From Amaricoccus solimangrovi (GTDB taxonomy: Bacteria > Pseudomonadota > Alphaproteobacteria > Rhodobacterales > Rhodobacteraceae), in contig NZ_VFRP01000033.1 in the NCBI RefSeq assembly GCF_006385685.1, positions 1 to 32,949 of the forward strand: a stretch of DNA of 32,949 nt, in the 5' to 3' direction. The position numbers were made by a program, and so were the translations under genes. A model generated the notes under the pieces. The model made no database searches, was not told the DNA's origin, and saw only the letters and a program-made list of their open reading frames with translations. Every line of letters starts with the position of its first letter. The first letter of the stretch is position 1. Below, in pieces: positions 13,640 to 31,660 of the stretch.

Positions 13640-14283
13640 CAGACGGAAGCCTCGATCGCCTGGAACGAGCAGCCGTCGGAGAGCATCTTGCGCGTGACGC
13701 CGGCGGCGAAGCTGCCCGGGGCGATCATCATCAGCGCGGTCGGGCGCTCGAGGAAGACGCGGACCCCGGTCACCGTGCCGGTCTTGAGCGCCGGCGTCAC
13801 CGTGATGGAGGGCGTCAGGCCCGAGCTGTTCGCGGACACCGTGTCGATAATCCTGTGGAGCGAGCGGCGGTCGCCGCGGTTGAACGCGAGCATGTCGCCT
13901 CGGGTCAGCGTGTAGCCCGAGGGCAGCCCGGAAATGCGCAGGGAGACGTTGTCCGACCCGATCGCATGCAGCAGCGGCGCGCTGTTGCCGAGTTCCGAGC
14001 CATCCGGGTCCGCCGCCGGAAAGGGGCGGCGAATGTTATAGAGGTGGAAGAGGCGATGCGGCAGGATCGCTTCGAACAGCGCCTGCAGCTCGTCGGCGTC
14101 GCGGTTGTTGTAGCGCGCGAGCGTCACGTCGGCGATCCATTTCGGCGGAGCGATCTCCGAGACGATGATGTCGCCGCGCCCCGTGCCCGAGGTCTCGACG
14201 AAATCCCGACGCCAGAAGGTCATCTCGCGCACGCGGAGCTTCCTGGCAAAGACATCCCGGCCGAGCGGAAATTCCAGTGCCAT
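13639..14283 (-). CDS. Distal tail protein (gpM/Dit position)
   Basis: The protein has 214 residues and directly follows the tape measure gene, the slot of lambda gpM or the distal tail protein of other siphophages. It is beta-rich: TFWRRDFVETSGTGRGDIIVSEIAPPKW, AILPHRLFHLYNIRRPFPAADPDGS, ISGLPSGYTLTRGDMLAF, and VFLERPTALMMIAPGSFAAGV near the end. The layout suggests a ring-forming beta-barrel joining tube and tip. I do not match it to a named Pfam family with certainty. ATG 14283 overlaps the tape measure stop by one base. Confidence 0.65.
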   Translation of the reverse strand: MALEFPLGRDVFARKLRVREMTFWRRDFVETSGTGRGDIIVSEIAPPKWIADVTLARYNNRDADELQALFEAILPHRLFHLYNIRRPFPAADPDGSELGNSAPLLHAIGSDNVSLRISGLPSGYTLTRGDMLAFNRGDRRSLHRIIDTVSANSSGLTPSITVTPALKTGTVTGVRVFLERPTALMMIAPGSFAAGVTRKMLSDGCSFQAIEASV

Positions 14284-16544: not shown

Positions 16545-16565
16545 ATCTGGGTGTCCCTGGTCTGT

Positions 16566-17323: not shown

Positions 17324-18294
17324 CAGGGGTTCCCGTAGCTGGCGGTCTGGTTCTTCAGCGTCACGGTGAGCGGCGACTCGCCGCTGTCCGGACGGGAGGC
17401 CCGGAAACCGAACTCGGCGGTGAGGATGTCGCCATTCGGAACGGGCACGCCGACGCGTTCGAAGCGGAGGTTGTGCAGGGCGAAGACGATCGAGAGCGTG
17501 GCGCTCAGCTCGTAGCGCAGCTCCATGTCCGAGAGCGTGCCGGCGGACCCCAGGTCATACCAGGACGTGTCGCGGAACCGCGCGCTGATCTTGCCCGTGA
17601 GCGACCAGTTGCCGTCGAGGAACGAAGCCGCCGTCGGCAGCTGGTTCAGCTCCTCCTGGTCCGGCGTGATGCCGAGCGACGCCTCGAATTCGAAGCCGGT
17701 CACGCCGGCGACATTGGCGCCGTCCTTCCAGATCGCCGCCTGGAACCCGACCGGCACCGTATCGGTGGCGAAGGCGACCGGCGCGGCGTCGAGCGTGTCG
17801 GCGAGCTTGTCCTCGACGGATCCGAGCATCTTGAACGCCGTTCGCGAACGCTGGCCGTCCTTCTGCGCGGAGAGCGACATCCCGGAATAGGCGACCGGGG
17901 CCTGGCGGAAATGCCGATCGATGCCCCGGTGCGAGATGCCGGCGGTGAAGAGCAGCGGCACCGGGATCGCCGCCATCTTGAAGACGTGGGTGTAGTTCGG
18001 CGCGCCGCCCGTGGTCACCGGGTCGCCGAAGAGCCCGCGCAGGTGCCAGCCGATCGACTGGAGGCCCAGCGGCACGGTGATGTCGCCGGTGAGGTTGCGC
18101 AGCCCCGCGACGGCCTCGCCGGGGAAGGCGTCGCCGACGATCGCATCGTCCTCGGTCACGTCCTCGGTCGGGGCCATGCTGATCGAGTAGAAGGGGAGCA
18201 GCCGGAAATCGCCATCCGCCGCCGCCGCGGGCGTCTCGAAATCGGCCTGCTCACGCATCAGGAAGGCGGCCTGGTCGCCGCGCGCGGTTGCCAT
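17323..18294 (-). CDS. Major tail tube protein
   Basis: The protein has 323 residues. It starts MATARGDQAAFLMREQADFETP, an opening common in siphophage tube proteins. Beta-rich segments follow: LRNLTGDITVPLGLQSIGWHLRGLFG, PNYTHVFKM, and GFEFEASLGITPDQEE around residue 205. NGDILTAEFGFRASRPDSGESPLTVTLKN closes it. The protein should stack as rings to form the tube through which DNA passes. GGAGGAG lies just upstream of ATG 18294. The gene sits between tail terminator and chaperones, as V sits between U and G in lambda. Confidence 0.85.
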   Translation of the reverse strand: MATARGDQAAFLMREQADFETPAAAADGDFRLLPFYSISMAPTEDVTEDDAIVGDAFPGEAVAGLRNLTGDITVPLGLQSIGWHLRGLFGDPVTTGGAPNYTHVFKMAAIPVPLLFTAGISHRGIDRHFRQAPVAYSGMSLSAQKDGQRSRTAFKMLGSVEDKLADTLDAAPVAFATDTVPVGFQAAIWKDGANVAGVTGFEFEASLGITPDQEELNQLPTAASFLDGNWSLTGKISARFRDTSWYDLGSAGTLSDMELRYELSATLSIVFALHNLRFERVGVPVPNGDILTAEFGFRASRPDSGESPLTVTLKNQTASYGNP

Positions 18295-18741
18295 CTAGAT
18301 CTCCTCCAGGGGGTTGTCGCCCGTCTCGTAGTAGAGCGTGATCTGAACGATGCCGGCGCGAACCGGCGCGTCGCCCAGGATGGGCGGATCCTCGACGTCG
18401 CCCGGCGCGGACAGGTCGAGATAGTCGACGCCCTCGATCGCCTGCCCGCGCAGCCCGCCGACCTTCGCGGCGAGCGCGTCGAAGAGCGCGCGGGCTCCCG
18501 CCTCGTCGCCGGGCTGGGCGACGATCTCGACCGCCGCGACCCGGCTCCACTCGCGCGCGGGAACGCCGAAGACCCTGCCTTCCTCAACGGGATCCTCGAG
18601 CCGCAGGTTCACCAGGCCCTCGGATGGGCAGTCCTCGGGCAGGACGGCGGCGCGGCTGACCGGCGGATCGCCTTCCTCCGCGAAGCAGAGCAGCAGGGCG
18701 GCATGAATCCGCGCGGCGATGGTCTCGTGCACCGTCGCCAT
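18295..18741 (-). CDS. Tail terminator protein (gpU-like)
   Basis: The protein has 148 residues. A first helix (VHETIAARIHAALLLCF) is followed by strands and helices, ending in the strand VRAGIVQITLYYETGDNPLEEI. This is the small alpha/beta arrangement expected of tail terminators, which cap the finished tube and join it to the head. Position just before the tube gene supports the call. ATG 18741 overlaps the upstream stop by one base. Confidence 0.7.
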   Translation of the reverse strand: MATVHETIAARIHAALLLCFAEEGDPPVSRAAVLPEDCPSEGLVNLRLEDPVEEGRVFGVPAREWSRVAAVEIVAQPGDEAGARALFDALAAKVGGLRGQAIEGVDYLDLSAPGDVEDPPILGDAPVRAGIVQITLYYETGDNPLEEI

Positions 18742-19388
18742 CAGTCGATCGCCTCGAGCTCGGCCTCGATCAGCGCGGGAAGCCTGCCGGACCAGTCGCC
18801 GTGTTCGCGGGCGACATCGAGGCGCTTGCGAAGCTTCACTCTCGGGTAGAGCAGGAACATCACGACTGTGGCGTCCGGGTTGGAATGCGCGGCGATCAGC
18901 TGCTTCTTCGTGCGGGCCCGCAGATACCCACGCTTGCCCCTTCGCAGGTTGTCCACGACAAGAAAGCTGGGCCCGTGCCTGCGGAAGATGAAGCGGAGCG
19001 GCCCGTAGCGGGACTCCGGGAAGTTGGAGGGGTTGATCCGCTTGCCGCCGACGCCCCGCTTCGGCGCGTCGGCCGTGGGGATCGCGAGCCAGAAGCCCGC
19101 CTCGCTCTTGATCATGGCGCCGCGATCGAAGGCGTCGATCAGCTTGGGCGACTTCGACGTGACCAGCGCCGCGGCGTTCGCGGATGCCTTCCCCTTGGGG
19201 TATAGGTCCAGCCGCCAGGCGTTGGCGAGCTTGCGCCCCAGCCCTCCCGAGAGGGTCTGGCGGCGCAGACCCGCCTGCAGGCCGACACCGGCGCGACCGA
19301 TGCCGCGCGTCACGGCGACCTGAACCTTGAGATATTCCTCGGCCATCGCCGCCAGCGGCGCGCCGGTCGCGGTGAACTTGATCTCCAT
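18741..19388 (-). CDS. DUF6441-family tail completion protein
   Basis: The protein has 215 residues. It is strongly basic, starts MEIKFTATGAPLAAMAEEYLKV, and has a central KRGVGGKRINPSNFPESRYGPLRFIFR and a C-terminal YPRVKLRKRLDVAREHGDW. This pattern is that of DUF6441 proteins, found between the head-tail connector and tail terminator in alphaproteobacterial siphophages, the slot of lambda gpZ. A role in head-tail joining follows from position. It is coupled to both neighbours by single-base overlaps. Confidence 0.75.
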   Translation of the reverse strand: MEIKFTATGAPLAAMAEEYLKVQVAVTRGIGRAGVGLQAGLRRQTLSGGLGRKLANAWRLDLYPKGKASANAAALVTSKSPKLIDAFDRGAMIKSEAGFWLAIPTADAPKRGVGGKRINPSNFPESRYGPLRFIFRRHGPSFLVVDNLRRGKRGYLRARTKKQLIAAHSNPDATVVMFLLYPRVKLRKRLDVAREHGDWSGRLPALIEAELEAID

Positions 19389-19693
19389 CAGGCGGGGACC
19401 GTGTTGACGATCGCGATCAGCCGGTCGGCATCGCGGTATCGCGGTGTGCCCCGGACCGTCCGGGTCTCTCCATCGACGAGGATCTCCGCGCCGGCGACGA
19501 TGCCCTCCATGTCCGCGCGCCGGATTTCGAGGATCACCGAGGTCGCGACGACGTCGCGGCTCAGGCGGAGCTGGATCTCTTCGTCAGGGGCGCGCCGGAT
19601 CGCCAGGATGGCGCGAGGCACGGTTTCCTGCACGATCACGGGGACCCCGAACGCATCGAAGACCGGGTCGATCGCAAGCGCGGGATCGAACAT
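19388..19693 (-). CDS. Head-tail connector (FII-like)
   Basis: The protein has 101 residues and starts MFDPALAIDPVFDAFGVPVIV. The rest is beta-rich: IQLRLSRDVVATSVILEIRRADME, ILVDGETRTVRGTPRYRDADRLIAIVNTVPA. Size, layout and place after the capsid genes match lambda gpFII, which forms the ring under the portal and joiner to which the tail attaches. The gene starts 6 bp after the preceding stop. Confidence 0.75.
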   Translation of the reverse strand: MFDPALAIDPVFDAFGVPVIVQETVPRAILAIRRAPDEEIQLRLSRDVVATSVILEIRRADMEGIVAGAEILVDGETRTVRGTPRYRDADRLIAIVNTVPA

Positions 19694-19699
19694 GTGAGA

Positions 19700-19906
19700 T
19701 CAGGCCCTGGAGCGGCTCTTGCGGCCAGCGGCTGCGAGGGCGGGGCGGCCGGCTTCCCGCTCCTCGTCGACGCGGCCCGCGCCCGAGGCGACGATGGCCG
19801 CCGCCCGATCGTCCTCGACCAGGCCGGTCCATCCTGGGGGATAGACGAGGATCTCGCCCTCGGTCAGCGGCAACTCGAGCCTGCGCTCGATCACGACACA
19901 GCGCAT
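19700..19906 (-). CDS. Small hypothetical protein between capsid and connector genes
   Basis: The protein has 68 residues and starts at ATG 19904-19906, with GGGGAAG directly before it and AGGGAGG a little further upstream. Residues MRCVVIERRLELPLTEGEILVYPPGWTG are beta-like, and the C-terminus is Ala/Arg-rich (GRPALAAAGRKSRSRA). In lambda this slot holds gpFI, a packaging facilitator, but the sequences do not obviously match. The frame is longer upstream but would overlap the capsid gene. Function unknown. Confidence 0.6.
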   Translation of the reverse strand: MRCVVIERRLELPLTEGEILVYPPGWTGLVEDDRAAAIVASGAGRVDEEREAGRPALAAAGRKSRSRA

Positions 19907-19936
19907 CTTCCCCGAAACCTCCCTGTCGGAATTGAT

Positions 19937-19963
19937 GGCGGGCCGGCGCGTCGCTGGCCCGCC
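19937..19963. repeat. Hairpin just after the major capsid gene
   Basis: GGCGGGCC (19937-19944) and GGCCCGCC (19956-19963) are perfect 8-bp arms with an 11-nt loop, in the 71-bp gap after the capsid stop. There is no T-run. A hairpin here could protect the 3' end of abundant capsid mRNA or reduce expression of the genes behind it. Confidence 0.45.
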
Positions 19964-19977
19964 GGTGCTCAGGCGGA

Positions 19978-21012
19978 TCAGTTGCTCGAGTGACCGCGCA
20001 CCAGGACCGCGGGCCGCATGCAGATCGGCAGCGTGTTCATCTGCGCCTGAACGTCGACGAACTGGCCCCACTTCTCATCCGGCGCGATCTTGGCGTAGAA
20101 CGGCTGGCCGGGGGTGTTGACGGTCTCGAGATAGTCCGCCGGGGCGTTGAACTGCCGGAAGGTGCTCCGGGTCCCGGTCGGGAAGAACCGCGCCTCGTTG
20201 TCCGGGATGAACTTGCGCGTGGTCCAGGTGCCGTCCTCGTTCGGCGTGTCGGCCGAGCCGAGATATTCCATCCAGGTGATCCCCATCCACCGGATACCCT
20301 CCTTGCGGGTGTCCTCCCGGAGCGGCGAGACGGTGGTGGCGTAGTACGTGTAGGCCTTCTGGAAGTCCTCCTGCTCCATGAGCCTGTCCCAGAAGCCGGG
20401 CGAGCAGAGCGCCGTCACACCGGTCATCATGTCGCCCTTGAGGTTGATCTCGATGTGGCGCGAGATCTCGCGCGACTTCGCGGCCCAGTCGGTCCCGGTC
20501 GTGCCGAAGGTGAAGTCGACCGCCTTCTGGGTGACGCCGAAGGCCGAGTAGAGATCGACGATCGTCGACCCGTCCGCGTCGAGCACCACGCCCCGCAGCG
20601 CGCCAGCGCGCAGGTATTCGCGCGTGATGTCGGTATTCGCCCGCAGGGTGATGATCCGGCCGTTGACCTCGTCGACCGCCTGCTTCAGCTCGCTCTCCGA
20701 GCCGAAAGCGCGGATGCCCTCGATCTCGTCGGCGGTGATCCGGGACTCCTGGGCGAAGCGCCGGGTCGAGAAGTCGCGCATCTCGCGCTTGCCATTGCGC
20801 AGGCCGGGCATCGGGGCGCCGCGCTGGCTCGAGGTGATCAGGGACAGGACGCCGTTCTGGCTCTCGATCTGGAACGCCGGCGTCCGGATCGACTTGTCCT
20901 GGAACAGGCCGAGTTCGCCGATCAGGCCGAACTGGTTCGGCACGACGTTGATCGCCTCGCTGAGTTCGCGGGTGTGGAATGCGCTGTCGCGAAAGATGTC
21001 CATGGTCGCCAT
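19978..21012 (-). CDS. Major capsid protein, lambda gpE family
   Basis: The protein has 344 residues, close to lambda gpE (341). Features of the HK97-fold gpE family include an N-terminal FHTRELSEAINVVPNQFGLIG, the arm region TRRFAQESRITADEIEG, VTALCSPGFWDRLM, the RKFIPDNEARFFPTGT strand typical of the family, and MNTLPICMRPAVLVRG near the end. GGAGAC upstream supports ATG 21012 over an internal Met three codons later. It follows the decoration gene, as E follows D in lambda. The hairpin after it may help its mRNA accumulate. Confidence 0.93.
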   Translation of the reverse strand: MATMDIFRDSAFHTRELSEAINVVPNQFGLIGELGLFQDKSIRTPAFQIESQNGVLSLITSSQRGAPMPGLRNGKREMRDFSTRRFAQESRITADEIEGIRAFGSESELKQAVDEVNGRIITLRANTDITREYLRAGALRGVVLDADGSTIVDLYSAFGVTQKAVDFTFGTTGTDWAAKSREISRHIEINLKGDMMTGVTALCSPGFWDRLMEQEDFQKAYTYYATTVSPLREDTRKEGIRWMGITWMEYLGSADTPNEDGTWTTRKFIPDNEARFFPTGTRSTFRQFNAPADYLETVNTPGQPFYAKIAPDEKWGQFVDVQAQMNTLPICMRPAVLVRGHSSN

Positions 21013-21073
21013 GGCGATTTAGTCTCCGTTTTCGGGAATGGGACGCGGCATGGCCGCCGAGGAGGAAGAACGG

Positions 21074-21442
21074 TCAGTCGGCGACGATGCCGACCGCCCT
21101 GAGCGCGGTGACGGCGGCGTTGCGCTCGCCGACGGTATCGATCGAGGAATGGAAGATCAGGGCGGAGCGGTTGAGCTTCGCCTCGCGCACCAGCGCGACC
21201 GCCCGGGCATCGGCCGAGGCGGCGGCCGCCGTCGTCACCAGGACCGCGACGGGCGTCTCGGACCCATCCGAAGCCCCGGGCGCGGAGAGGGCGTACTTGC
21301 CGCTCGCGGTCACGATGCCGAGCACGGCGCCGACCGTGAGATCGGCGCCGGAGGCGACGGTGATCTCCTCGCGGCTGTAGCGATTGTCCGCCTCGTAGCG
21401 GATCAGATCGCCGAGATAGTTTCCTTCGGTCAGCGTTGCCAT
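21074..21442 (-). CDS. Head decoration protein, lambda gpD family
   Basis: The protein has 122 residues. It starts MATLTEGNYLGDLIRYEADNRYSREEITVASGADL and then has LTVGAVLGIVTASGKYAL and ALVREAKLNRSALIFH, all typical of gpD-like proteins, which bind as trimers at capsid threefold sites and stabilise the expanded head. AGGAG lies upstream of ATG 21442. An intrinsic terminator sits between this gene and the protease gene, so its transcription depends on read-through or an unseen promoter. Confidence 0.9.
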   Translation of the reverse strand: MATLTEGNYLGDLIRYEADNRYSREEITVASGADLTVGAVLGIVTASGKYALSAPGASDGSETPVAVLVTTAAAASADARAVALVREAKLNRSALIFHSSIDTVGERNAAVTALRAVGIVAD

Positions 21443-21460
21443 CGACGGGCTCCTCGCATG

Positions 21461-21485
21461 AAAAAGCCCGCGGGAAGACGCGGGC
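21461..21485 (-). terminator. Intrinsic terminator inside the head operon
   Basis: On the minus strand GCCCGCG, a 6-nt loop TCTTCC, CGCGGGC and then TTTTTC give a 7-bp all-GC stem followed by a T-run. It lies between the protease/scaffold stop (21530) and the decoration start (21442). The decoration, capsid and tail genes need polymerase to pass it. Confidence 0.75.
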
Positions 21486-21529
21486 GTGAAGCGGATGTGG
21501 CCGGGCCCGCCGGAGCGGGCCGAGCCGGG

Positions 21530-21988
21530 TCAGCGGCCGGCGGCGGACGCCCGCATGCGCTCGGCGGCGCTCACGCGCTCCCGGGCACCGCTGGCGCCGG
21601 GCACGGCGGGCGAGGGCACGCCGCCCTGGGCGCGCATCGCCTGCGCGAGGCGCCCGGTGGTCGCACCTCCGACCGCGGCCTTCTCGAGGGCCGCGATCGC
21701 GGCCTTGGGCGCCATGTCGGTCTCGAGCGCGAGGTGGCGGGCCAGATCCTCGCGACCGGCGGCCGCCTCGGAGGTCAGGATCGCGGCGATGCGCTTGCGC
21801 TCGGAATTCCGGGCCGTCGCTTCGGCGGGCTCATCCTCCTCGACACCGCCGTCGCCCTCGTCCTCGGCGGGCGGCGGAGTGGTCTCCTCCTCGCCCCCGG
21901 TTTCATCCTCGGTCGAGGCGGCCTCTTCCTCGGGCGTCTTCGGATCTTCCGGCTCGGCCGAGAGCTTCGCCGCGGTCTGTTTCGTCAT
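21530..21988 (-). CDS. Nested capsid scaffold protein (Nu3-like internal start)
   Basis: This is the C-terminal third of the protease gene, read from an internal ATG (21986-21988, Met309 of the long form) preceded by AACGGAGGACAG, a strong Shine-Dalgarno. It would make a separate 152-residue protein: about 55 very acidic residues rich in Glu, Pro and Thr, then a helical ERKRIAAILTSEAAAGREDLARHLALE and an Arg/Ala-rich tail. Lambda uses the same arrangement, with Nu3 scaffold starting inside gene C. The start signals are seen; scaffold function is inferred by analogy. Confidence 0.7.
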   Translation of the reverse strand: MTKQTAAKLSAEPEDPKTPEEEAASTEDETGGEEETTPPPAEDEGDGGVEEDEPAEATARNSERKRIAAILTSEAAAGREDLARHLALETDMAPKAAIAALEKAAVGGATTGRLAQAMRAQGGVPSPAVPGASGARERVSAAERMRASAAGR

Positions 21989-22912
21989 GAGGATCTGTCC
22001 TCCGTTGAAGGTTGATCCGCCGCCATTCATCTCGGCGACGAACTCCAGGAAGGCCTCGCGCGGTTCTCCGACGGCGTCGGCGAGGCCGGCTGCGACGGCG
22101 TCGGCGCCGGTCAGGCATCGCGCCTCGGTCGCGAGCGCGGCGTCGGCGCTCAGCCGATCCCCGCGCCCCGCCGCGACCGTCCAGGCGAAGAGCTGGCGCA
22201 GACTTTCCATCTCCGCCTCGAAATCCGCGCGCACCGCCTCGGGCAGCGGGGCGTAGGGATTTCCATCGACCTTGTGCTTGCCGGCGTGGATCAGCGTCAC
22301 GCCGAGACCCGCCGTGTCGAGCGCGCGGGACATGTCGACATGCATGCAGAGCACGCCGATCGAGCCGAGCCCCCCGGTGCGCGGCACGACGATCTCGCCC
22401 GCCTGCGACGCCAGCGCATAGGCGGCCGAGAACGCATGCTCGGCGATGAAGGCCCGGACCGGCTTGAGCGCGCCGATCTCCCGGACGCGATCGGCGAGGC
22501 CGAAGCAGCCGGCGACCTCGCCGCCAAAGCTGTCGATCTCGAGTGCGATCGCTCGAACCGCGGGGTTGTCGGCCGCCGCGTCCAGCTGCGCCCGGATGCC
22601 CTCGTAGCTCGTCTGCCCGCTCGACTTCCCGACCCAGGCGCCGCGATGCACCAGGACGCCCGCGATCGGCACGATCGCCACGCCGTCGACCAGGCCGTAG
22701 CCATAGCCGGGCTCGACCCACTCCGCGAGCTCGTTGCCGAGCAGCGAGGCGAGCGGGCGCTTCGCAGCGGGCACGTCGTCTTCGTCGTCATCGAGGAAGG
22801 CCATCGGCTGGCCGAGAACCCGGGCGCCGAGCCCGTGCGCGAAGGCGACAGCCTTGCGTGGCTCGACGAGCAGGGGCGCGTTGAAGGCGCGCGCGGCGAT
22901 GTGAGGGAGCAT
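21530..22912 (-). CDS. S49-family prohead protease with C-terminal scaffold region
   Basis: The protein has 460 residues. The first 300 are an S49/SppA-like protease of the lambda gpC type: VAIVPIAGVLVHRG, IALEIDSFGGEVAGCFGLAD at about 122-141, AFIAEHAFSAAYALAS with the likely nucleophile Ser162, GGLGSIGVLCMHVDMS, and HAGKHKVDGNPYAPL with the likely general-base Lys214. It should mature the prohead. Residues 309-460 are the acidic and helical scaffold part, which has its own start. The gene lies 9 bp after the spike-base gene and is followed by an intrinsic terminator. Confidence 0.9.
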   Translation of the reverse strand: MLPHIAARAFNAPLLVEPRKAVAFAHGLGARVLGQPMAFLDDDEDDVPAAKRPLASLLGNELAEWVEPGYGYGLVDGVAIVPIAGVLVHRGAWVGKSSGQTSYEGIRAQLDAAADNPAVRAIALEIDSFGGEVAGCFGLADRVREIGALKPVRAFIAEHAFSAAYALASQAGEIVVPRTGGLGSIGVLCMHVDMSRALDTAGLGVTLIHAGKHKVDGNPYAPLPEAVRADFEAEMESLRQLFAWTVAAGRGDRLSADAALATEARCLTGADAVAAGLADAVGEPREAFLEFVAEMNGGGSTFNGGQILMTKQTAAKLSAEPEDPKTPEEEAASTEDETGGEEETTPPPAEDEGDGGVEEDEPAEATARNSERKRIAAILTSEAAAGREDLARHLALETDMAPKAAIAALEKAAVGGATTGRLAQAMRAQGGVPSPAVPGASGARERVSAAERMRASAAGR

Positions 22913-22921
22913 GCGCGGGCC

Positions 22922-23185
22922 TCAGTAGCGGCCGACGAGATCCGAGGCCGTCGACGTGGCGCGGACATGGGTGAAGCAGCCGAGGAACTCGACGCCCGAC
23001 GGCACATTGAGCATCGTCCTGTCCTCGGTGTCGCCCACGTGGCGCACCACCATGGTGCCCCCGTTCCCGACCCAGATCGATCGCGTGACGAAGGGCAGGG
23101 CCTCACTCTCGGCGGGGTCGATGTCGAACGAGTGACGCGGCACCCCGAGGAAATCATCCTCGTGACTCACGAAATGATCAGGCAT
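22922..23185 (-). CDS. Rcc01079-like spike-base protein
   Basis: The protein has 87 residues. The segment ALPFVTRSIWVGNGGTMVVRHVGD, then MLNVPSGVEFLGCFTHVRATSTASDLVGRY, follows the pattern of the Rcc01079 spike-base family first described beside the Rhodobacter capsulatus gene transfer agent (T-R-x-hydrophobic-x-G-x-G-G, later NVPxG, then V-x-ATxTxAxD-hydrophobic-V). In the agent these proteins anchor head spikes that help it bind cells. Here it lies between portal and protease and overlaps the portal gene by 8 bp. A virion role at the capsid surface is likely, but no spike fibre gene is seen beside it. Confidence 0.75.
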   Translation of the reverse strand: MPDHFVSHEDDFLGVPRHSFDIDPAESEALPFVTRSIWVGNGGTMVVRHVGDTEDRTMLNVPSGVEFLGCFTHVRATSTASDLVGRY

Positions 23186-24776
23186 CCGGTGTCCTTTCCG
23201 GTTCGGGGGCGCGCTGCTCCGGCGTCCCGAGCAGCTTCGCGAAGCTTTCCTGCATCGGGTGGAGGCAGCCGTCCGGCATCGCGGCGATCTCGCGCCGGAT
23301 CTGAGCCAGGTTCTCGGTCAGATCCGCGCCGCCGAGCTCGGCCGCCTCATCCTCGAGGGTGGAGAGGCCGAGCGCGACGCGCATCGCGGCGGCCTGCGCC
23401 TCCTTCACGGGATCGACGAAGCCCTTTCCCGGCCCGATCCATTTTGCCCGGGCATAAGCCGCCCAGGCTTCGTGGAAATCGGGCGCCCGGCGCGGCATCG
23501 GCAGCAGGCCGGCGTCCCACTTCTCCTCGAGCCAGGCCATGAAGAACGGCTGGCAGAAACCTCCCGAGAAATTGGCCCGGCGGGCCGTCAGGCCGCGCCA
23601 TATCTCGATCAGCGCGGCCCGGGCCGAGCTGTAGTTGACCTTGCTCCAGTCCTGGGCGACCTGCTCGTAGGACTGCCCGGTCCCAGCCGCGATATGGCGC
23701 AGGACGGCGCTCTGGAACTCACCGAACTGGGCCGAGGGGCGCGCCGAATCCACCACCCCGATCTCTTCCCCGGGATAGAGGTGCGGGATCTTGGCCCCGC
23801 CCATGCGCACGGCGCCCTTGTCGTCGTAGTACGCGGAGCGTTCCGCGTTGTAGGCGTCCCAGGCGCCGCCGTTCTCGCTCAGGAGGTCCGTGATCGCCTC
23901 CGGATCCATCGGCGATTTCACGAATACCGCCAGGATGGCATTCAGCACCGCCGCCTGCAGCTCGACGCGGCCGTACTGGTCCTCCATCCGGAGCTTTTCC
24001 ATGATCGGAGCGAGCCGCGAGACCCCGCGCGTCTGCCCGTCGCGGTGCTTGTCGAAATAGTGGAGCACGATCGGGCGGCCCCAGGCGTGCTCGCGCGCGA
24101 ACCGGGTCCATGACAGCGCTTCCGTGCTGGCCCAGCTGGTTCCCGGGTGCGCGTTCCTCAGGTGATAGGCCATCGAGGCGCCATTCGCGTCGATTTCCAC
24201 GCCACCGCGCAGCGTCGCATCGTCCGCCAGGCCCATCGGATTGCAGAGGAGGTCCGGATCGACCACCCGCAGCGTGGTCCGGACCGGCCGGTCCTCCTCC
24301 CAGCCGATCACGCCGACCGCGTCACCGTCGATCATGTAGCTCCGGTAGGCCATGCCGAAGAGTTGAGAGATCGAGAGCTGTCGCGAGGCGTCGAGATACC
24401 GGCGCGGATCCTCCGCGTCGAGCTGCCAGTGCGCCTCGACCGCCTCTTTCCAGTCCCTCGCCCAGCCCTCGTCGAGGCCAAGCGCGCGCCAGTTCGGCTT
24501 CGAGAGTGGCCGGAAGGCTGAACCGATGACCGCGTCGACCTCGCGCACCGCCGCGCCGGCCGCCCAACCGTTGTTGCGGGTGATGTCGCGCGCGCGGGCG
24601 ACGATCTGGTCGCGGTCGCGGAGATATTCCGCGTCCGGCGCGCGCAGCGGGGCATGCCAGTTGACCATGGCCTCGCTGGTCCGGTCTCCGGCGAGGTAGG
24701 CCGCGCCCTGCCCGCCGACCGCGACGGCGCCGGCGCGCGGACGCGACGGAAGCAGAGATCTCAGCCGGTCGAACAT
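23178..24776 (-). CDS. Portal protein, lambda gpB family
   Basis: The protein has 532 residues, close to lambda gpB (533). ARDITRNNGWAAGAAVREVDAVIGSAFRP, YRSYMIDGDAVGVIGWEED, YFDKHRDGQTRGVSRLAPIMEKLRMEDQYGRVELQAAVLNAILAVFVKSP and GTGQSYEQVAQDWSKVNYSSARAALIEIWRG are all characteristic of the family. Twelve copies form the channel at one capsid vertex through which terminase packs DNA. Its start overlaps the joiner stop by one base. Confidence 0.95.
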   Translation of the reverse strand: MFDRLRSLLPSRPRAGAVAVGGQGAAYLAGDRTSEAMVNWHAPLRAPDAEYLRDRDQIVARARDITRNNGWAAGAAVREVDAVIGSAFRPLSKPNWRALGLDEGWARDWKEAVEAHWQLDAEDPRRYLDASRQLSISQLFGMAYRSYMIDGDAVGVIGWEEDRPVRTTLRVVDPDLLCNPMGLADDATLRGGVEIDANGASMAYHLRNAHPGTSWASTEALSWTRFAREHAWGRPIVLHYFDKHRDGQTRGVSRLAPIMEKLRMEDQYGRVELQAAVLNAILAVFVKSPMDPEAITDLLSENGGAWDAYNAERSAYYDDKGAVRMGGAKIPHLYPGEEIGVVDSARPSAQFGEFQSAVLRHIAAGTGQSYEQVAQDWSKVNYSSARAALIEIWRGLTARRANFSGGFCQPFFMAWLEEKWDAGLLPMPRRAPDFHEAWAAYARAKWIGPGKGFVDPVKEAQAAAMRVALGLSTLEDEAAELGGADLTENLAQIRREIAAMPDGCLHPMQESFAKLLGTPEQRAPEPERTPDA

Positions 24777-25016: not shown

Positions 25017-26990
25017 TCACGGCATCATCCTCACGCGCTGGCGCCGCTCCTCGGCCGCCGGCGGCGCGACTGGCGCCACGGTGGGGGCCAGCATGTCGAA
25101 CAGCTCGCGCTGCGCCTCGGGCGGGGCCACTCCGCGCTCGGCGTCGAGCGCGTCCCATTGCAGTTCGGTCATCGCCGCCCAGCCGGCCCGGCGAGCCGCC
25201 GCCTCGGCGTAGAGATGCGCGTCGAGGGCCTCATTCCGTCTGGTCGCCTCGACGAGCTCCCACTGGGAGGTCACGACGCCGCTGCGCTGCCGGCGCAGCA
25301 CCCGGACTTCCGCCGTGATCTGCCGGTAGAACTCGTCTCCGAGCCCCGTCGCGAAGGCGACGAAGCCCCGCGCATCCGGATCCTCGCGCTCGAGCCGCGC
25401 GTAGAAGTCCGCCTTCATCTGGCTCACGTTGAGCATGAAGCCCTGCTTGGTCCGGGCCTTGTTCGGCTTCCCGTCCCGCCTGCGCTCCTGCATCGGCATC
25501 ATGATCGGGCCGTTCTGCGAACTCGATCCCTTGATCGCGATCACCCGGTGGCGCGGGTAGCGCTTCACCCAGGTCCAGACGTCGTCGGTATAGGCGCTCG
25601 AGTCGATCGCCAGCGCGTCGAGCCCCAGTTCGAGCCCGGCGGTGGTCCGCCATTTCGCCCGCAGGTGGGCGTCGAGCGCGTCGCGGCCGGCCTCCTCGCC
25701 GATATGATGCGGGATCACGACGTGGTCGATCACCCAGCTGCGCCGGTCGCGGCCCCAGGCGACGATCTGCAGTTCGATCCGGTCGCCCTGGCAATCGACC
25801 CCGCCGGTCAGCATCACGCCCCGCGCCGGCACGCGGCCGCGCGCCAGGTAGGCTCCTTCCTCGCTCTTCTCGACCCGGTCGCGCAGCCTGGTCCAGTCCT
25901 GCCCGCCGCTCGCCTGCTCGTATTCGAGGCCGAGCACGTCATTGAAGAACGTCTGCTCGGTCTCGGCCTCCGGCTCCGTGTCCGCCTCGCGGGCCTCGCC
26001 CGCCGCCAGCGTGCTCCATCCCATCACGCGGGCGTATTCCACGGCGATCGACGCCCAGTCGCGCTGGGGCGCGTAGGCGCGCCAGAGGAAGAACCCTGGA
26101 TGATCACCGGCGGGGTTCGTCGCGACCCACCGCCCGGCGCTCACCATGGCCTCCTTGTGGCCGTGGTGGATCGCCGCGCCGCAGGCCTCGCAGGTGAAAT
26201 GCGCGGCGTGCAGCCGCTCCGGATCGATCGAGGCCTTGAAGTTCTCCCAGGTCAGCGGCGCCATGTTTCCGCAGTGCGGACAGGGCACGTGGTAGAGCCG
26301 CTGGTCGCTCCGGGCGAACGCCTTGCCGATCCGGCAGGTGCCCTTGATGAGCGAGGTCGAGACCCGGAGGATCTTGGCATCCTCGAACGCGGAGGCGCGG
26401 CTCTCCGCGAGGCTCTCCGGATCGCCCTTGTCGCTCATCTCGTATTTCGCGACATCGTCCATGATCACCAGGCGCCGGGTCGTTCCGGTCAGGTCGGCCG
26501 GCGATCCGGCCGAGGCGACCTTCAGCGATCCGTCGCGCGCCAGCGTCTCCTGGTTCTGCGTCGTGTCGGTCTGCTCGCCGCGACCATCCCCGAAGATCCG
26601 CCGGAGGCTCGGCGCCTGTCGTCTGAGCGGCAGCCACTTCGTGCGCGTCCAGTCGGCCGCCGCGCTCATCGTCGGGTGCACCACCAGGGCGTCGAGCGGG
26701 CCGTATTCGAACCAGGCGCCGAGGGTCGGATTCACCACCGACACCGTCTTGCCCCACTGGGCCGATCCCTTGACCGTCACCTCGCGCGCCGGGTGTTCCG
26801 GCGAGAGCACCTCGTGGACCCCGCGCAGGAACGGAAAGCGCGTGATGTCGAACGGTCCCGGGAACGGGGACCGCTCGTCGAAGATGACGTTCTCCTCGCA
26901 CCAGCGCGTGATGTCCGGCGGGGGCGGCGGCCGCAGCGCCGCGGCGAAGCCGCGCGCCACCGCCGCCTCGGCGGGCGCGAGGAAGCCCAT
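25017..26990 (-). CDS. terL: Terminase large subunit, gpA family
   Basis: The protein has 657 residues, near lambda gpA (641). The start is ATG 26990, with AGGAGG upstream and a TGATG overlap with the small-subunit gene; the open frame extends further but only over that gene. It has a Walker A-like VKGSAQWGKT at about 73-82, Walker B LVIMDD at about 174-179, a CPHC and CEAC pair at about 240-270 that probably binds zinc, and a nuclease half with GGVDCQGDRIELQIVAWG and ALAIDSSAYTDDVW. It cuts concatemeric DNA and drives it into the prohead. By family it would make cohesive ends like lambda, though no cos site was identified. Confidence 0.95.
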   Translation of the reverse strand: MGFLAPAEAAVARGFAAALRPPPPPDITRWCEENVIFDERSPFPGPFDITRFPFLRGVHEVLSPEHPAREVTVKGSAQWGKTVSVVNPTLGAWFEYGPLDALVVHPTMSAAADWTRTKWLPLRRQAPSLRRIFGDGRGEQTDTTQNQETLARDGSLKVASAGSPADLTGTTRRLVIMDDVAKYEMSDKGDPESLAESRASAFEDAKILRVSTSLIKGTCRIGKAFARSDQRLYHVPCPHCGNMAPLTWENFKASIDPERLHAAHFTCEACGAAIHHGHKEAMVSAGRWVATNPAGDHPGFFLWRAYAPQRDWASIAVEYARVMGWSTLAAGEAREADTEPEAETEQTFFNDVLGLEYEQASGGQDWTRLRDRVEKSEEGAYLARGRVPARGVMLTGGVDCQGDRIELQIVAWGRDRRSWVIDHVVIPHHIGEEAGRDALDAHLRAKWRTTAGLELGLDALAIDSSAYTDDVWTWVKRYPRHRVIAIKGSSSQNGPIMMPMQERRRDGKPNKARTKQGFMLNVSQMKADFYARLEREDPDARGFVAFATGLGDEFYRQITAEVRVLRRQRSGVVTSQWELVEATRRNEALDAHLYAEAAARRAGWAAMTELQWDALDAERGVAPPEAQRELFDMLAPTVAPVAPPAAEERRQRVRMMP

Positions 26991-27622
26991 CAGAAATCCT
27001 CCTCGCTCTCGGCGTCCGACAACAGCGCGTCGCGCTCGACGAGCTCGGCCGCGTCCGCGCGGTCGCCCCGGTGCCGGCGCCACTCGTCGAGGATCAGCTT
27101 GCGGACGACGCGGGCGTCGAGCTGGTGCGCGTCGGCGACGCTGCGGGCAAGGCCGCGCAGGAATGCGAGGACCTCGCCGAGTTCCCGGGCCATCTGCCGT
27201 TGCGCCTGGCGCTCGACCTCGGACGCGAGCACGAACGCGCGCTCTTCCTCGAGGTTCTGCCGCCGTGCCCGGCGCGCATCCTCCTGCGCCTTCAGCGTCC
27301 GGGCGGCCTCGTAGGGCGTCTCGGTCGGCCCGGCCACTGGAAGCGCCGGGGCCACCGAGCGCGGTGCCTGCTCGTCGGTTCCGACCGGGCTGCCCGCCAT
27401 GATCCGCGCCGCCGCGCGCTGGGTCCCGGCGCCGTTGCCGAGGCGCTGGCCCGGATCGATCCGGCGACCGAGAGCCTCGGCGCAGGCAACGGGATCGAAC
27501 CGGCGCTGGCGACGCTCGCCGTGGTAGCAGCCGTCGAGCTTGCCTTCCGAGACGAGCTGGCTGATCCGGGCCTTCGAAACGCCGAACGCCCGCGCGAGTT
27601 CGGTCGTGTTGAGCCCCGTCAT
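26990..27622 (-). CDS. terS: Terminase small subunit (Nu1-like)
   Basis: The protein has 210 residues. A winged-helix DNA-binding start (NTTELARAFGVSKARISQLVSEGKL, then GERRQRRFDP) occupies about residues 5-50, as in lambda gpNu1. A long variable linker follows, then a helical region (LEEERAFVLASEVERQAQRQMARELGEVLAFL) that should mediate oligomerisation and binding to gpA. The acidic C-terminus ends DAESEEDF. It is the first gene of the late operon, behind a 403-bp non-coding region. The Shine-Dalgarno is poor, so the start is less certain than the gene. Confidence 0.88.
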   Translation of the reverse strand: MTGLNTTELARAFGVSKARISQLVSEGKLDGCYHGERRQRRFDPVACAEALGRRIDPGQRLGNGAGTQRAAARIMAGSPVGTDEQAPRSVAPALPVAGPTETPYEAARTLKAQEDARRARRQNLEEERAFVLASEVERQAQRQMARELGEVLAFLRGLARSVADAHQLDARVVRKLILDEWRRHRGDRADAAELVERDALLSDAESEEDF

Positions 27623-28025
27623 CGCCGTTTCGCTGTCTCGCCCCCGCTTGGTTAAGGCTAACTGTCTGGTTTAGCTTACAAAAAGTTACGCGCCCCGCCG
27701 GCCCGCATACGTTCCACGCGCCGGGAAGGACCCGCCGAACGCCGCCCGGGCGCCGACGCCTCCGGGGGCCGGGGCACCGCGCAGGCGGATGCGGCCTCAG
27801 GCTCTGGCTAACCCATTGAAAAGAAAAGGCGTCGCGCCTTTATCGAGGCGCCGCGCCGTGCGGTCATAGCTTCGCTGTCGGGCTGGCTAGTATCCCTGCC
27901 AGCTGGTCAGTGCGCGGCTCTGCTTGTCGCGAGGCCAAGGCCTCGGGCTGCCAACGGTTCCACTGTCGCCGCCCTTACCACTAGCCTAACCCTTCGCGTT
28001 AAACAAGAGCCCGCGCGGCGCCAGC
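27623..28025. promoter_or_regulatory. 403-bp non-coding control region between early and late operons
   Basis: No ORF or RNA gene is seen. It holds, from the right: a GCCTAACCC at 27984-27992; a hairpin CGAGGCC-AA-GGCCTCG at 27930-27945; a hairpin CTGGC/GCCAG at 27883-27902; the intrinsic terminator at 27818-27841; a GGCTAACCC at 27806-27814; and GTTAAGGCTAAC at 27651-27662, next to an AT-richer patch (27669-27690). The late promoter should lie here, but no clear -35/-10 pair stands out. The three related CTAAC elements share one orientation and may be binding sites. Confidence 0.55.
27818..27841 (-). terminator. Intrinsic terminator between the NusG-like gene and terminase genes
   Basis: On the minus strand AAAGGCG-CGA-CGCCTTT is followed by TCTTTTC: a 7-bp stem, triloop and T-rich tail. 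It lies about 185 bp after the NusG-like stop and about 195 bp before the terminase small-subunit start, so it should end the early transcript unless polymerase is modified. Confidence 0.75.
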
Positions 28026-28751
28026 TCATATCGCCGATTCCACCGAGCCGAGGTTTGCAAGATCCACGCGGACAGGTCGCTCCGAGCCGAACATCTCGAA
28101 GATGACCTTGGCCTCCGTCGGCGTGATCTCGATCACCTTGCCGCGCGACCAGCCGAGCGGCCCCTCGAGCACCTCCACCGCTTCTCCGACCTTGAAGGCA
28201 CGCCCCGTCGGCATCAGGCGCTGGATGGTCCTGGCCTGATCCTCATGCTCGACGTCGTGGAGACGACCGATCTCACGCTGGGGGATCGCGGCCGGAGCGC
28301 CTCCGAAGCCCATGACCCCGCGCACCATCGGGCACCGGAGAACCCGCGCCCAGCTCACGGCCTTCCCGTCGGCCGACGCGAGCGGCGCCGCGAGTACGTA
28401 GCCAGGCAGGATAGGCTGATACACCACACGCTTCTCGTGGCGCCGGTACTTGTTCGAGCGGACCCACTTCGACCGGACCGGCACCCAGGCATCGATCCCA
28501 GCGCGCAGGAGGATCTCCTGAACCAGGAACTCGGCCCGGTTGGGATGGTGCGGCTCGGGCGCGCCACTCGCCCCGTCCACCGGCACCGCCGGCCTGGCGG
28601 ACCTCCGGACCATCGAGAGCTGCGCGTTCCCGACCGACGTCCGGCGCGGATCGACGCGAAGCGCGAACCAGGTCGCGGCGCGCTCGGCCGGGGCCTCGAA
28701 TTCCTCGGCGGCGGCGATCTTCATGCGGCTTCCTTCCTTGGTCATGGTCAT
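28026..28751 (-). CDS. NusG-family transcription factor, candidate late antiterminator
   Basis: The protein has 241 residues. An NGN-like domain covers about residues 25-165: TWFALRVDPR, LRAGIDAWVPVRSKWVRSNKYRRHEKRVVYQPILPGYVLA, then RGVMGFGGAPAAIPQREIGRL. A KOW domain follows at about 186-241: FKVGEAVEVLEGPLGWSRGKVIEI, then KVIFEMFG. NusG/RfaH proteins bind RNA polymerase through NGN and modulate pausing and termination. A 49-residue insert between the first strand and the helix is unlike host NusG. ATG 28751 overlaps the previous stop (ATGA); a third Met at residue 10 has AAGGAAGG just before it and may be the true start. As last gene before a terminator and the late operon, it sits where lambda has Q. 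Confidence 0.85.
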   Translation of the reverse strand: MTMTKEGSRMKIAAAEEFEAPAERAATWFALRVDPRRTSVGNAQLSMVRRSARPAVPVDGASGAPEPHHPNRAEFLVQEILLRAGIDAWVPVRSKWVRSNKYRRHEKRVVYQPILPGYVLAAPLASADGKAVSWARVLRCPMVRGVMGFGGAPAAIPQREIGRLHDVEHEDQARTIQRLMPTGRAFKVGEAVEVLEGPLGWSRGKVIEITPTEAKVIFEMFGSERPVRVDLANLGSVESAI

Positions 28752-29749: not shown

Positions 29750-30382
29750 CTATGTGATCATGCCGAAAATCCTCTGAACCGCCGCGCGCACATCCGGCTT
29801 CGACTGCGGCAACGCGCGCTCCGCCAGCCATGCGCGGACCCGCAGGACCTTGTCCTCGTCCCTGGCGATCTGCTGGAAACCGAGCTCGCTGAGCGTCGCC
29901 CGCAGCCGGCCGAGGCGCTGCCGGTCGAGATTGCCCTGCCGCTTGCCCCGCGCCCTCTCGACGAGCTTCCACATGTCCGCCGCCACCTCGGTGACGACCG
30001 GATGCGCGAGCCTGACGCCGGCGGGCGCGCCGTCCTGATCGAGGACGCGCACCCGTGTCCAGCCGCGCAGCACGCCCGTCCTGAGGCGCTCCCAGCTCGC
30101 CATGTCGCGCCAGCAGCGCGCCGCGTGGGCGAGTTCGACGTCGGCGGTGGGAAGCGTCCCGCCCGGCGCCTGCGTGCCGAGCGCGTAGGTCCACAGCGCG
30201 AGCGAGGCGCCGATCTCCTCGTTGGTCGCGGTCGCGAACATCGTCGACCCGAAAAAGCGCGCGTGGTGGAACGGGAAATAGTCGAGCCCGCCGAGACGGC
30301 ACTCGGTATGGAGGGGATAGACCGGAAGCTCGTCCTCGCCGGCGACCATGAGCAGGCCCGGCGACCGCTCCGCCGCGCTCAT
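29750..30382 (-). CDS. DUF1376-like replication-associated protein
   Basis: The protein has 210 residues. ATG 30380-30382 overlaps the upstream stop (ATGA); a longer frame exists but runs over that gene. Residues about 30-95 resemble DUF1376: LDYFPFHHARFFGSTMFATATNEEIGASLALWTYALGT, then GGTLPTADVELAHAARC. Members are often N-terminal parts of phage replication initiator or replisome-organiser proteins. The C-terminal half is helical and basic (WKLVERARGKRQGNLDRQRL). The repeat cluster lies just behind it, an arrangement common to initiators and their origins. The initiator role is inferred. Confidence 0.7.
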   Translation of the reverse strand: MSAAERSPGLLMVAGEDELPVYPLHTECRLGGLDYFPFHHARFFGSTMFATATNEEIGASLALWTYALGTQAPGGTLPTADVELAHAARCWRDMASWERLRTGVLRGWTRVRVLDQDGAPAGVRLAHPVVTEVAADMWKLVERARGKRQGNLDRQRLGRLRATLSELGFQQIARDEDKVLRVRAWLAERALPQSKPDVRAAVQRIFGMIT

Positions 30383-30687
30383 GGCCCCGCCCTCCGCATC
30401 CCGCGCCCGGATCGACCCGTATTGCCGCTGGAGAAGATCCGGCGCGCCTCCCACGGCAGCGCGCAGACGCCGGCGAAGAAGGCATGTGCCGGGTCGGGCT
30501 CGAGGCCGCAGAGAGCGCAGACCAGGGCAAAGTCGTGCGAGGGCCGGGGGCCGATCCAGCGCTCCGCGTCCCGGCGCAACGCGGGCTGGGAGAGGGCCAG
30601 GTCGGTCAGCACCTGCCAGAGGACGGCCCCCCAGAGATCCACCTCCCCCGCGCCGCCGCGCGAGGGCATGCGCGCCACGCTCGTCAT
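30379..30687 (-). CDS. Small hypothetical phage protein
   Basis: The protein has 102 residues. ATG 30685-30687 overlaps the methyltransferase stop (ATGA), and its own stop overlaps the next start the same way. The central segment WGAVLWQVLTDLALSQPAL, then ERWIGPRPSHDFALVCALCGLEP, fits a type of small phage protein (helix, W-I-G, DF-x-x-V-C-x-x-x-G-L-x-P) seen in alphaproteobacterial prophages. No biochemical role is known to me. The end is Gly/Arg-rich. Confidence 0.65.
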   Translation of the reverse strand: MTSVARMPSRGGAGEVDLWGAVLWQVLTDLALSQPALRRDAERWIGPRPSHDFALVCALCGLEPDPAHAFFAGVCALPWEARRIFSSGNTGRSGRGMRRAGP

Positions 30688-31331
30688 GACGCGACCTCGC
30701 GCGGATAGTCGCCATCGCGTTCCAGCCGGCGCCTGCAGGGCGGGATCCAGCCGAGACCGGTCCATTTCGACGCGTCGAGCCAGACCAGCCAGCAATAGGC
30801 CGTCGCGGTCGAGCCCGTCGCGGTGAGGCGCCCCTTGTGCATCGGCACCCGCTCGCTGAACTGGAGGACGTAGGCGGGCGGGTTCACGCGATAGATCGCG
30901 TTGAACCGCTCCACCCCTTCGATGAACGAGGTGCGCACGAGCATCGCGAAGCCGTCGAGCGCCACCCTGCCGGCGCGTTCGATGAAGGCCTGCGCGAGCC
31001 GGAACGGCGGATTGGTGATCACCCAGTCCGGCCGCGTCGGGCAGCGCGGCCCCGTGTTGGCGATGAGGAAATCGCAAGTCGGGAGGCCGACGCCGTAGTC
31101 GTGCACGTCGCTGGCCCAGACCTCCGCGAAATACTCCGCCAGCGGCCGCGCCATGTGGCCCTCGCCGGCGGCCGGCTCCCAGACGGTCCCGAGGCCGTGT
31201 TCGATCAGCCCCTGAGCGAGGAGCCATTCGCAGAGCGCCCGGGTCGCCCAGGGCGGAGTGGGGAAATAGTCGAGGCTGTCGTGTGGCTCGGCGCGGCGCG
31301 CCATGACCGCGGCGCTGGTATTCTGGGTCAT
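30684..31331 (-). CDS. Orphan phage DNA methyltransferase (probable N6-adenine)
   Basis: The protein has 215 residues. It contains the SAM-binding motif I VWEPAAGEGHMARPLAEYF (about 50-68), the acidic end of the next strand (VWASDVHDYG) and catalytic motif IV WVITNPPFRLAQAF (about 103-116). NPPF is typical of N6-adenine methyltransferases. A preceding YFPTPPWATRALCEWLL is also common in phage versions. No restriction enzyme gene is adjacent, so likely roles are protecting phage DNA or altering transcription by methylation. The recognition site cannot be deduced. It overlaps the GapR-like stop (ATGA). Confidence 0.85.
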   Translation of the reverse strand: MTQNTSAAVMARRAEPHDSLDYFPTPPWATRALCEWLLAQGLIEHGLGTVWEPAAGEGHMARPLAEYFAEVWASDVHDYGVGLPTCDFLIANTGPRCPTRPDWVITNPPFRLAQAFIERAGRVALDGFAMLVRTSFIEGVERFNAIYRVNPPAYVLQFSERVPMHKGRLTATGSTATAYCWLVWLDASKWTGLGWIPPCRRRLERDGDYPREVAS

Positions 31332-31660
31332 GCCGGCGCGCTCTCACTTTCCTCGGCGGCGCCCGACGCCCGCTGGAAGGCCCAGCCCGCCAGTGGCGTG
31401 CCTTCCATCCCCATCGCGTCGCGATAGAGGGCGAGCATCTCCTGTTCCTCGGAGATCTCCGACCACTCCCGCTGGCGCTCGCGCAGCAGCATCCGGATGA
31501 TCTTCGTGTCGTAGCCTTGCGCCTTGGCCTCAGCCATGACGGCTTTCGTATCGTCCGACAGCGCGGCGCGTTGCTCCGCCAGGCGCTCGAGTCGCTCGAC
31601 GAACGCCCGCAGCTGGCCGGCGACAACGGTGTTTCCTCTGACTTTCTGGCGTCTCGCCAT
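31328..31660 (-). CDS. gapR: GapR-like nucleoid-associated protein (DUF2312)
   Basis: The protein has 110 residues. TVVAGQLRAFVERLERLAEQRAALSDDTKAVMAEAKAQGYDTKIIRMLLRERQRE and the following EEQEMLALYRDAMGM match the DUF2312/GapR pattern (long coiled-coil helix, AEAKxxGxD, ILRxRK-like, EExxLLxLYxxALG). GapR binds overtwisted AT-rich DNA ahead of forks and polymerase in Caulobacter and stimulates topoisomerases. This copy has about 20 extra C-terminal residues. AAGGAGG before ATG 31660 fixes the start. In a phage it could help replication, regulate transcription or compete with host GapR; these are inferences. Confidence 0.88.
   Translation of the reverse strand: MARRQKVRGNTVVAGQLRAFVERLERLAEQRAALSDDTKAVMAEAKAQGYDTKIIRMLLRERQREWSEISEEQEMLALYRDAMGMEGTPLAGWAFQRASGAAEESESAPA

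Follow-up and report, generated by a model that had tools for sequence, protein, structure and literature searches.

The locus studied here raises the question of how a phage turns on its late genes when the last gene of its early block encodes a paralogue of NusG. The window (the whole stretch of DNA that was analysed) is one entire contig of 32949 bases from a 4.86-Mb genome and is also recorded as IMGVR_UViG_2889862014_000001. Our reading, which sequence comparison leads us to hold with a probability of roughly 0.7, is that a dedicated phage NusG paralogue activates the late operon by processive antitermination, probably after recruitment by leader RNA in the manner of LoaP.

The locus and its NusG-type protein

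The first-pass annotation had placed a 241-residue NGN+KOW protein at the end of the early block, and the open reading frame (28026-28751 (-), ATG start), the profile matches and the predicted fold all agree with this. Its statement that the late block opens with the terminase small subunit (terS) holds equally: terS (26990-27622 (-)) matches phrog_57 with an E value of 4e-17, and it is followed on the same strand by a GpA-type terminase large subunit (TerL; 25017-27083 (-), profile matches) and by late genes that all run in one direction (portal, protease, major head protein, tail terminator, tape measure, distal tail and tail fibre; 7865-24776 (-)). The same-strand genes upstream of terS are nusG, an open reading frame without a family match, a replication-like gene of the early block (29750-30715 (-), phrog_22470), a methyltransferase-like gene and a gene for a phage-borne GapR-like nucleoid protein (31328-31660 (-), PF10073, E = 1e-24).

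The nusG and terS genes are separated by 403 nt of non-coding sequence (27623-28025), which holds one terminator-like hairpin on the gene strand. This hairpin (27841-27825 (-), 7 bp) is followed by a T-rich tract (27815-27824) and divides the gap into a leader of 184 nt, from the nusG stop codon to the terminator stem (27842-28025 (-)), and a second stretch that runs from the terminator to terS (27623-27814 (-)). On the + strand, GGCTAAC has two copies in the window (27656 and 27806), both inside the gap, and GCCTAACC has a single copy, at 27984; the sites concerned (27650-27664, 27805-27813 and 27982-28005) are possibly operator-like repeats.

The protein matches the Pfam NusG family (PF02357; E = 3.7e-8, score 34.2 bits, gathering score 22.2) and the PHROG 6386 'transcription antiterminator' profile (E = 1.3e-19), an unspecific profile that 389 of the order's 390 genomes match. 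It lies far below the cut-off of the NCBIfam NusG model (TIGR00922; E = 7.8e-11, 42.1 bits, cut-off 135.7) and of the models for UpxY (NF033644; 37.9 bits, cut-off 100), LoaP (NF033641; 23.3 bits, cut-off 125) and RfaH (TIGR01955; 20.9 bits, cut-off 144.5). A scan of 29 family members at E ≤ 0.001 gave matches to UpxY in 29, to NusG in 28, to LoaP in 27 and to RfaH in 20. Because the members match several models, the family is best placed among the NusG-type regulators, with no clear membership of any one class.

The AlphaFold model (mean pLDDT 78, pTM 0.57) has NGN and KOW parts. Of NusG, RfaH and LoaP, which had been suggested at first pass for structural comparison, NusG and RfaH are among the nearest PDB folds to the predicted model. 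The strands of the KOW barrel lie between residues 191 and 236 (block pLDDT 92-95 over 191-230), and in a fold search the C-terminal barrel matches the NusG C-terminal domains 1nz9, 2mi6 and 2jvv. A barrel in the model is compatible with RfaH-type fold-switching. The insert noted earlier in the NGN region is real: it adds about 35 residues after the first strand, ahead of the first NGN helix, part of it modelled with low confidence, and it is present in the Rubricella-type relatives described below and absent from the host NusG and from the rhizobial phages.

The host's own nusG is on another contig, ahead of L11- and L1-like genes, and its product is 26% identical to the window protein. A 42-row tree unites the 13 housekeeping NusG proteins in one clade (100/100) and leaves the phage proteins outside it, and K-12 RfaH stands apart from the phage proteins; RfaH, the window protein and two phage rows sit on long branches, and finer placement is unsafe. 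Recent capture of nusG from the host is rejected on the 26% identity and the separation in the tree, long branches notwithstanding. Another NusG-type protein (L249, G1033:C69) groups with RfaH in this tree.

Relatives, their leader RNA and the leader of the window

Protein scans with the window NusG returned only its own contig in IMG/VR and nothing in genome contigs, and a search of viral sequences with the G997 protein likewise found no relative. The family was revealed through the NusG of phage phi3LM21, which has tblastn matches in 23 phage-collection records. Genomic context was taken from seven of these (PPF1 is present twice): in phi3LM21, phi2LM21, PPF1, MseS-P1, Rivra and a phage recorded from Nostoc, nusG overlaps a replication gene and lies just ahead of the terminase, which in PPF1 and Rivra is at the start of the record. 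One Salmonella record was rejected as housekeeping nusG by context, and the 15 records outside the context check are from another Salmonella, jumbo phages, and faecal, Listeria and Acinetobacter sources. Scans of viral contigs with single proteins as queries gave 28, 44, 4, 0 and 2 loci. Within the Rhodobacteraceae, five of 394 genomes match the window-type NusG at E ≤ 1e-16; one match is housekeeping and one groups with RfaH, which leaves three and makes the window type rare. A genome of the same family (G025) carries the stretch found in Rubricella aquisinus (Rhodobacterales), and the four Rubricella-type relatives are Rubricella itself, one same-family genome and two metagenome contigs.

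The gene order is widely kept. TerL lies downstream of nusG on the same strand in 77 of 87 loci (duplicates included), and the other ten have 0.1-2.3 kb of sequence left past nusG. A replication-gene match lies upstream of nusG in 80 of the 87, the seven without one being the window and the Rubricella-type loci. The terminases that nusG precedes are of five strongly diverged types: phi2/L119/window (37-49% identical); PPF1 (25-28% to the former type); phi3LM21 (21-25%); Rivra/MseS-P1/Nostoc (42-48%); and L053 (22-24% to the Rivra/MseS-P1/Nostoc type). Between the first three types and the last two, the best BLAST match has an E value of 0.028. A terminator is found within 420 nt past nusG in 74 of 82 loci, the window included; the scan found none in L036, L041, L052, L086, L091, L092, L112 and L121, and of these L036 (identical in sequence to L118) and L121, both Rubricella-type, do have a terminator with an imperfect stem. 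These comparisons indicate that the nusG-leader-terminator layout is under selection in the relatives.

In the rhizobial-type loci the order is nusG, a structured RNA of about 125 nt, an intrinsic terminator and the first late gene. The leader is kept across terminase types and mostly ends in AGGCGGCCGAGAGGTCGCCT and a T tract, or a variant of this. It falls into two main classes, A and B, that share a fold: an outer helix P2 with hairpins P2a and P2b, a helix P3 with an inner hairpin, and GC(NNNN)GCTATG. RNAalifold gave a partly wrong fold on a mixed alignment, and the classes were therefore handled apart. In class A (17 sequences) 97.6% of cells are paired and six of 30 pairs show double changes; in class B (26 sequences, aligned by sequence alone) the values are 92.2% and nine of 29, with two pairs of P3 failing in about half of the rows. 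Shuffles, which take no account of relatedness, were as good in 0 of 500 cases on any of five measures for class A; for class B, four measures likewise gave 0 of 500 and the fifth gave 4 of 500. When all hits are fitted to the model 23 of 30 pairs show double changes, a result equalled in 0 of 500 shuffles, in an alignment that leans to the structure and contains five noise rows. A hairpin at the leader start (AGTCAT/ATGAC, seen by eye) was dropped, as it breaks in part of class B. In L051 (after 6811) and L087 (after 6817), insertions of >100 nt separate the RNA motif from the terminator, with the RNA and the terminator still recognisable on either side.

An RNA search model, R1, built on the 17 class A leaders, gives one hit in each of the 79 rhizobial-type loci (these include the 17 training rows, and one leader is cut by a contig end), directly past nusG and with E ≤ 1.2e-4; class B, MseS-P1 and Rivra are covered. 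Beyond the rhizobial leaders R1 has no hit below E = 0.21 in 983 kb of loci. No Rfam 15 family reaches its gathering score in six whole sources, and none appears at E ≤ 1 for one rhizobial leader and the window gap. A run of R1 over 385 class-level genomes gave no hits; with strict pre-filters and no positive control, it is uninformative.

The rhizobial-type leader RNA and the NusG protein occur together from whichever side the search starts. A pattern of 18 fixed RNA bases, scanned over viral contigs, gave at least 120 stretches. Among the matches listed, a NusG match lies directly upstream in all 105 testable ones (those with ≥500 nt upstream, 105 of 118 newly fetched stretches), and the fetched stretches represent at least 107 distinct neighbourhoods, at least 73 of which are not identical to loci found through the protein. 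For the first 69 measured among the matches listed, the NusG match ends 94-155 nt before the motif in 68, and the 69th, the 1396-nt outlier L168, is an artefact with NusG directly upstream. A terminator follows within 120 nt past the motif in 69 of 78 of the matches listed.

The type of NusG also agrees with the class of leader without exception across 79 loci, where type means the best-matching reference and most loci had been found with the phi2 or the Nostoc protein. All 45 class A leaders accompany a Nostoc-like NusG and all 32 class B leaders a phi2-, PPF1- or MseS-P1-like one (29, 2 and 1, respectively); phi3LM21 and Rivra each have a leader of their own, outside both classes. Terminase and replication types are common to both leader classes. 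Correlations were calculated for the 41 loci left after removal of near-copies from the 55 of 79 that are complete. Identity of the NusG core follows that of the leader with r = 0.905, compared with 0.75 for the protein's own N-terminus, 0.32 for the C-terminal part of the replication protein, the gene for which often overlaps nusG, and 0.046 (p 0.15) for TerL. Inside class A (27 loci) the coefficients for leader, N-terminus, replication protein and TerL are 0.73, 0.91, 0.59 and 0.31, and inside class B (13 loci) they are 0.54, 0.69, 0.44 and 0.21. By these measures NusG and the leader behave as a module between classes, with a weaker signal inside them. The leader lies next to nusG, so that simple linkage accounts for part of their joint inheritance, and since descent by itself keeps neighbours together, recombination is the sharper test. 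The first ~28 NusG residues are identical in L052 and L077, but what follows belongs to different NusG classes, which suggests that recombination has occurred within the gene.

The window itself is more diverged. Its terminator-like hairpin (-7.1 kcal/mol) is weaker than that of most rhizobial phages (about -14.7 kcal/mol), and as a scan of 9 kb found two such sites against 2.6 expected from shuffles, it is alone no better than chance; its credibility comes from its place and from the terminators at homologous loci. A second hairpin (27825-27854 (-), -9.4 kcal/mol) overlaps the terminator, can sequester its 5' arm and is possibly an attenuator-type alternative fold. The last 14 nt of AGCGAAGCTATGACC (27862-27876 (-)) can be aligned, with a single gap, to the 3' motif found in rhizobial leader RNAs, the commonest form of which is GTGCGAAAGCTATGACC; the window form is GCGAA-GCTATGACC, 20 nt ahead of the terminator stem. 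This likeness, noticed before it was tested, was equalled in three of 20,000 dinucleotide shuffles, once within 12 nt of its place. R1 scores a non-significant 0.7 bits at the right place in the window, and a 9.3-bit hit lies elsewhere, inside terS; the Rubricella-type leaders have no significant R1 match either. The suggestion that the leader is a loading site finds its backing in the covarying RNA tied to NusG in the rhizobial phages, but not in a significant R1 match in the window. A word at 28002-28010 (-), GCTCTTGTT, 16-24 nt past the nusG stop codon, resembles boxA; as one short word that may be chance, it was set aside as weak.

Near the end of nusG, a Leu-Ala pair is encoded by CTTGCA (28056-28061 (-)), a candidate -35 element with no matching -10 in the window. 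These codons correspond to the TTGC element of the rhizobial phages, discussed below, and include the same CTT, a codon used for 27 of 584 leucines in 15 open reading frames of the window, although nusG contains one further CTT. Sequence scans recognised no promoter after the window nusG, and the TTGAC-N17-TTAA element of the Rubricella-type relatives is absent. Because the R1 match and the promoter-like element are missing and the terminator is weak, we read the window, with moderate confidence, as a diverged member of the nusG-leader-terminator layout with a putative RNA of its own. The interpretation of the layout is strongly supported for the family and moderately for the window.

Proposed activation of the late operon and its alternatives

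In the mechanism that we favour, transcription of the leader would normally stop at the intrinsic terminator just ahead of the first late gene; in the Rubricella-type relatives it may start from the promoter-like site directly past nusG. NusG, made as the final product of the early block, would join RNA polymerase through its NGN domain during leader transcription, and in the rhizobial phages the folded leader RNA would recruit or license it. NusG would then take the polymerase past the terminator and on into the late genes. The idea, already put forward in the first-pass annotation, that a specialised NusG serves late antitermination in place of an N- or Q-type protein gains support from the family-level comparison, including the promoter-like site, leader and terminator that follow nusG in the Rubricella-type relatives. 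We infer antitermination, recognition of RNA by NusG and the same working of the diverged window leader.

The alternative that survives best is that NusG is loaded in the manner of Q, through a DNA element or a promoter-proximal pause at the late promoter, and that the leader RNA is a 6S-like by-product; we consider this possible, though distinctly less probable than recruitment by RNA. In lambda, the order pR'-6S-tR' is promoter, short leader and terminator, and the Rubricella-type loci seem to have the same order. TTGACN-N17-TTAA is found past nusG in all four (in L121, which has a longer nusG reading frame, near the end of that frame), and the conserved terminator starts 142-169 nt past it in each; TTGAC-N18-TTAA has a single match per locus of ~12 kb, and the spacers are unrelated. 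As separate observations, made partly by eye, L118, L119, L121 and L248 share GTTAAG a few nucleotides before TTGAC, and L118, L119 and L121 have another terminator-like hairpin farther downstream.

The rhizobial phages keep TTGC at the 3' end of nusG, where CTT encodes the leucine of a PLA-type motif in 78 of 78 loci, which are related sequences and not 78 events, against 161 of 1341 other leucine codons; a further locus, L112, has ATT instead of CTT and still keeps TTGC. By eye, TTGCNN is followed at 18 nt by AGTCAT (in phi3LM21 and Rivra by TACAAA), and together with this second box, which is poor in most loci, the element looks like a promoter. A DNA element, ops, is also what recruits RfaH according to abstracts. 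Loading through DNA is nevertheless at odds with the compensatory changes by which the rhizobial leader keeps its base pairing as an RNA.

The rhizobial leader is large and structured, as cis-acting antitermination RNAs are, and it might itself antiterminate with host factors, as put- or EAR-like RNAs do, with NusG mainly guarding late transcripts against Rho or pausing. We regard this as unlikely, since the agreement of NusG type and leader class in 79 of 79 loci and the NusG match upstream of every testable motif among those listed would then be needless.

Slightly less likely again is that the terminator merely ends the early operon and that a separate promoter further down serves the late genes; NusG would then do something else, for example act in early antitermination or in autoregulation. 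In the window, the ~190 nt that separate the terminator from terS could accommodate a promoter, and in many relatives additional genes stand between the leader and terS. Among 72 rhizobial-type loci with a hairpin located by pattern, however, 69 have an ATG reading frame of ≥90 codons that opens no more than 60 nt past the terminator, which leaves little room; in the other three it starts at 96, 277 and 571 nt. A strong promoter downstream of 27818 that fully explains late expression had been named at first pass as a finding that would speak against late antitermination by NusG; the scans used, including those for sigma-70-like promoters, recognised no promoter-like site past the window terminator. 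Cos sites occur near terminase genes, as this conserved stretch does, but its reading as a cos/pac packaging site and not a regulatory leader is rejected as highly improbable, because the stretch is kept ahead of strongly diverged terminases, has in many phages other genes between itself and terS, lies in PPF1 ~0.7 kb from the end of a record that terS starts, and covaries as RNA.

Recruitment of NusG by the leader, followed by antitermination, remains the reading that we prefer. We also lean, by a little over even odds, towards a wider claim: that NusG with a ~125-nt leader RNA forms a second, independent class of RNA-guided NusG, a cognate pair which widespread alphaproteobacterial phages use for their late genes and which is co-inherited while replication and packaging modules recombine, the window and the Rubricella-type loci being diverged versions with leader types of their own. 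If this is true, phages have made a developmental switch out of a universal elongation factor, and the structured leader adds a second example, LoaP being the first, of a NusG protein that may respond to a signal in RNA. More than 100 natural protein-RNA pairs (at least 107 distinct neighbourhoods) would be available for comparison, and late gene control in rhizobial phages becomes directly testable.

Comparison with known systems

To our knowledge, phage late switches comprise Q-type and N-type proteins, RNA-only put sites, phage polymerases and sigma factors. Antitermination by a NusG paralogue is an already known kind of regulation, which here would occupy the position of a phage late switch. 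The NusG proteins of phi2LM21, phi3LM21, PPF1, Rivra and MseS-P1 occupy the same position and are annotated as transcription (anti)termination proteins, their role being known from annotation alone; a term search of the main text of the phi3LM21 paper found neither NusG nor antitermination (PMC5537653). Two papers on NusG paralogues mention plasmid-borne cases and rfaH-like genes on prophages, and the passages concerned contain no late-operon role in a phage (PMC7819879, PMC7593976). In the literature searched, which excludes most subscription journals, no title or opening of an abstract concerned a phage NusG with a leader RNA.

GafZ, from the Caulobacter gene-transfer-agent (GTA) cluster, is a proposed binder of promoter DNA and partner of host NusA, NusG and NusE (PMC11150451). 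Its cluster is alphaproteobacterial and phage-like, and an antitermination complex carries transcription through it, as we propose for the phages considered here; there the host NusG is used, whereas here the phage supplies its own. UpxY resembles the phage protein in being encoded next to its target operon (passages of PMC7819879) and in the match of all 29 family members to its model, but the window protein scores well below the cut-off. RfaH shares the NGN+KOW fold and differs both in model score and in that the phage gene lies beside its presumed target.

The lambda Q system has a regulator as the last early gene, a promoter and short leader downstream and a terminator before the late operon, and the sequences of the four Rubricella-type relatives show this order. 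In the window the regulator, leader, terminator and late operon are present and no promoter was found. The putative phage regulator belongs to the NusG family and not to Q, and its leader RNA is conserved and structured. That many alphaproteobacterial phages have their own NusG, a leader that in the majority is a conserved folded RNA, and a terminator suggests a new version of the lambda-type late switch.

By analogy, LoaP is the nearest mechanistic precedent for the phage NusG. In the dfn and mln operons of Bacillus velezensis a NusG paralogue lies beside its target operon, as the phage gene lies beside its presumed one. LoaP requires an RNA hairpin upstream of the leader terminator (as stated in part of PMC12691694), and this order of RNA hairpin leader and intrinsic terminator is found in the rhizobial-type phages. 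The phage system differs in that its target would be a late operon, its RNA is branched and ~125 nt long in place of one small hairpin, and its hosts are alphaproteobacteria and not Bacillota.
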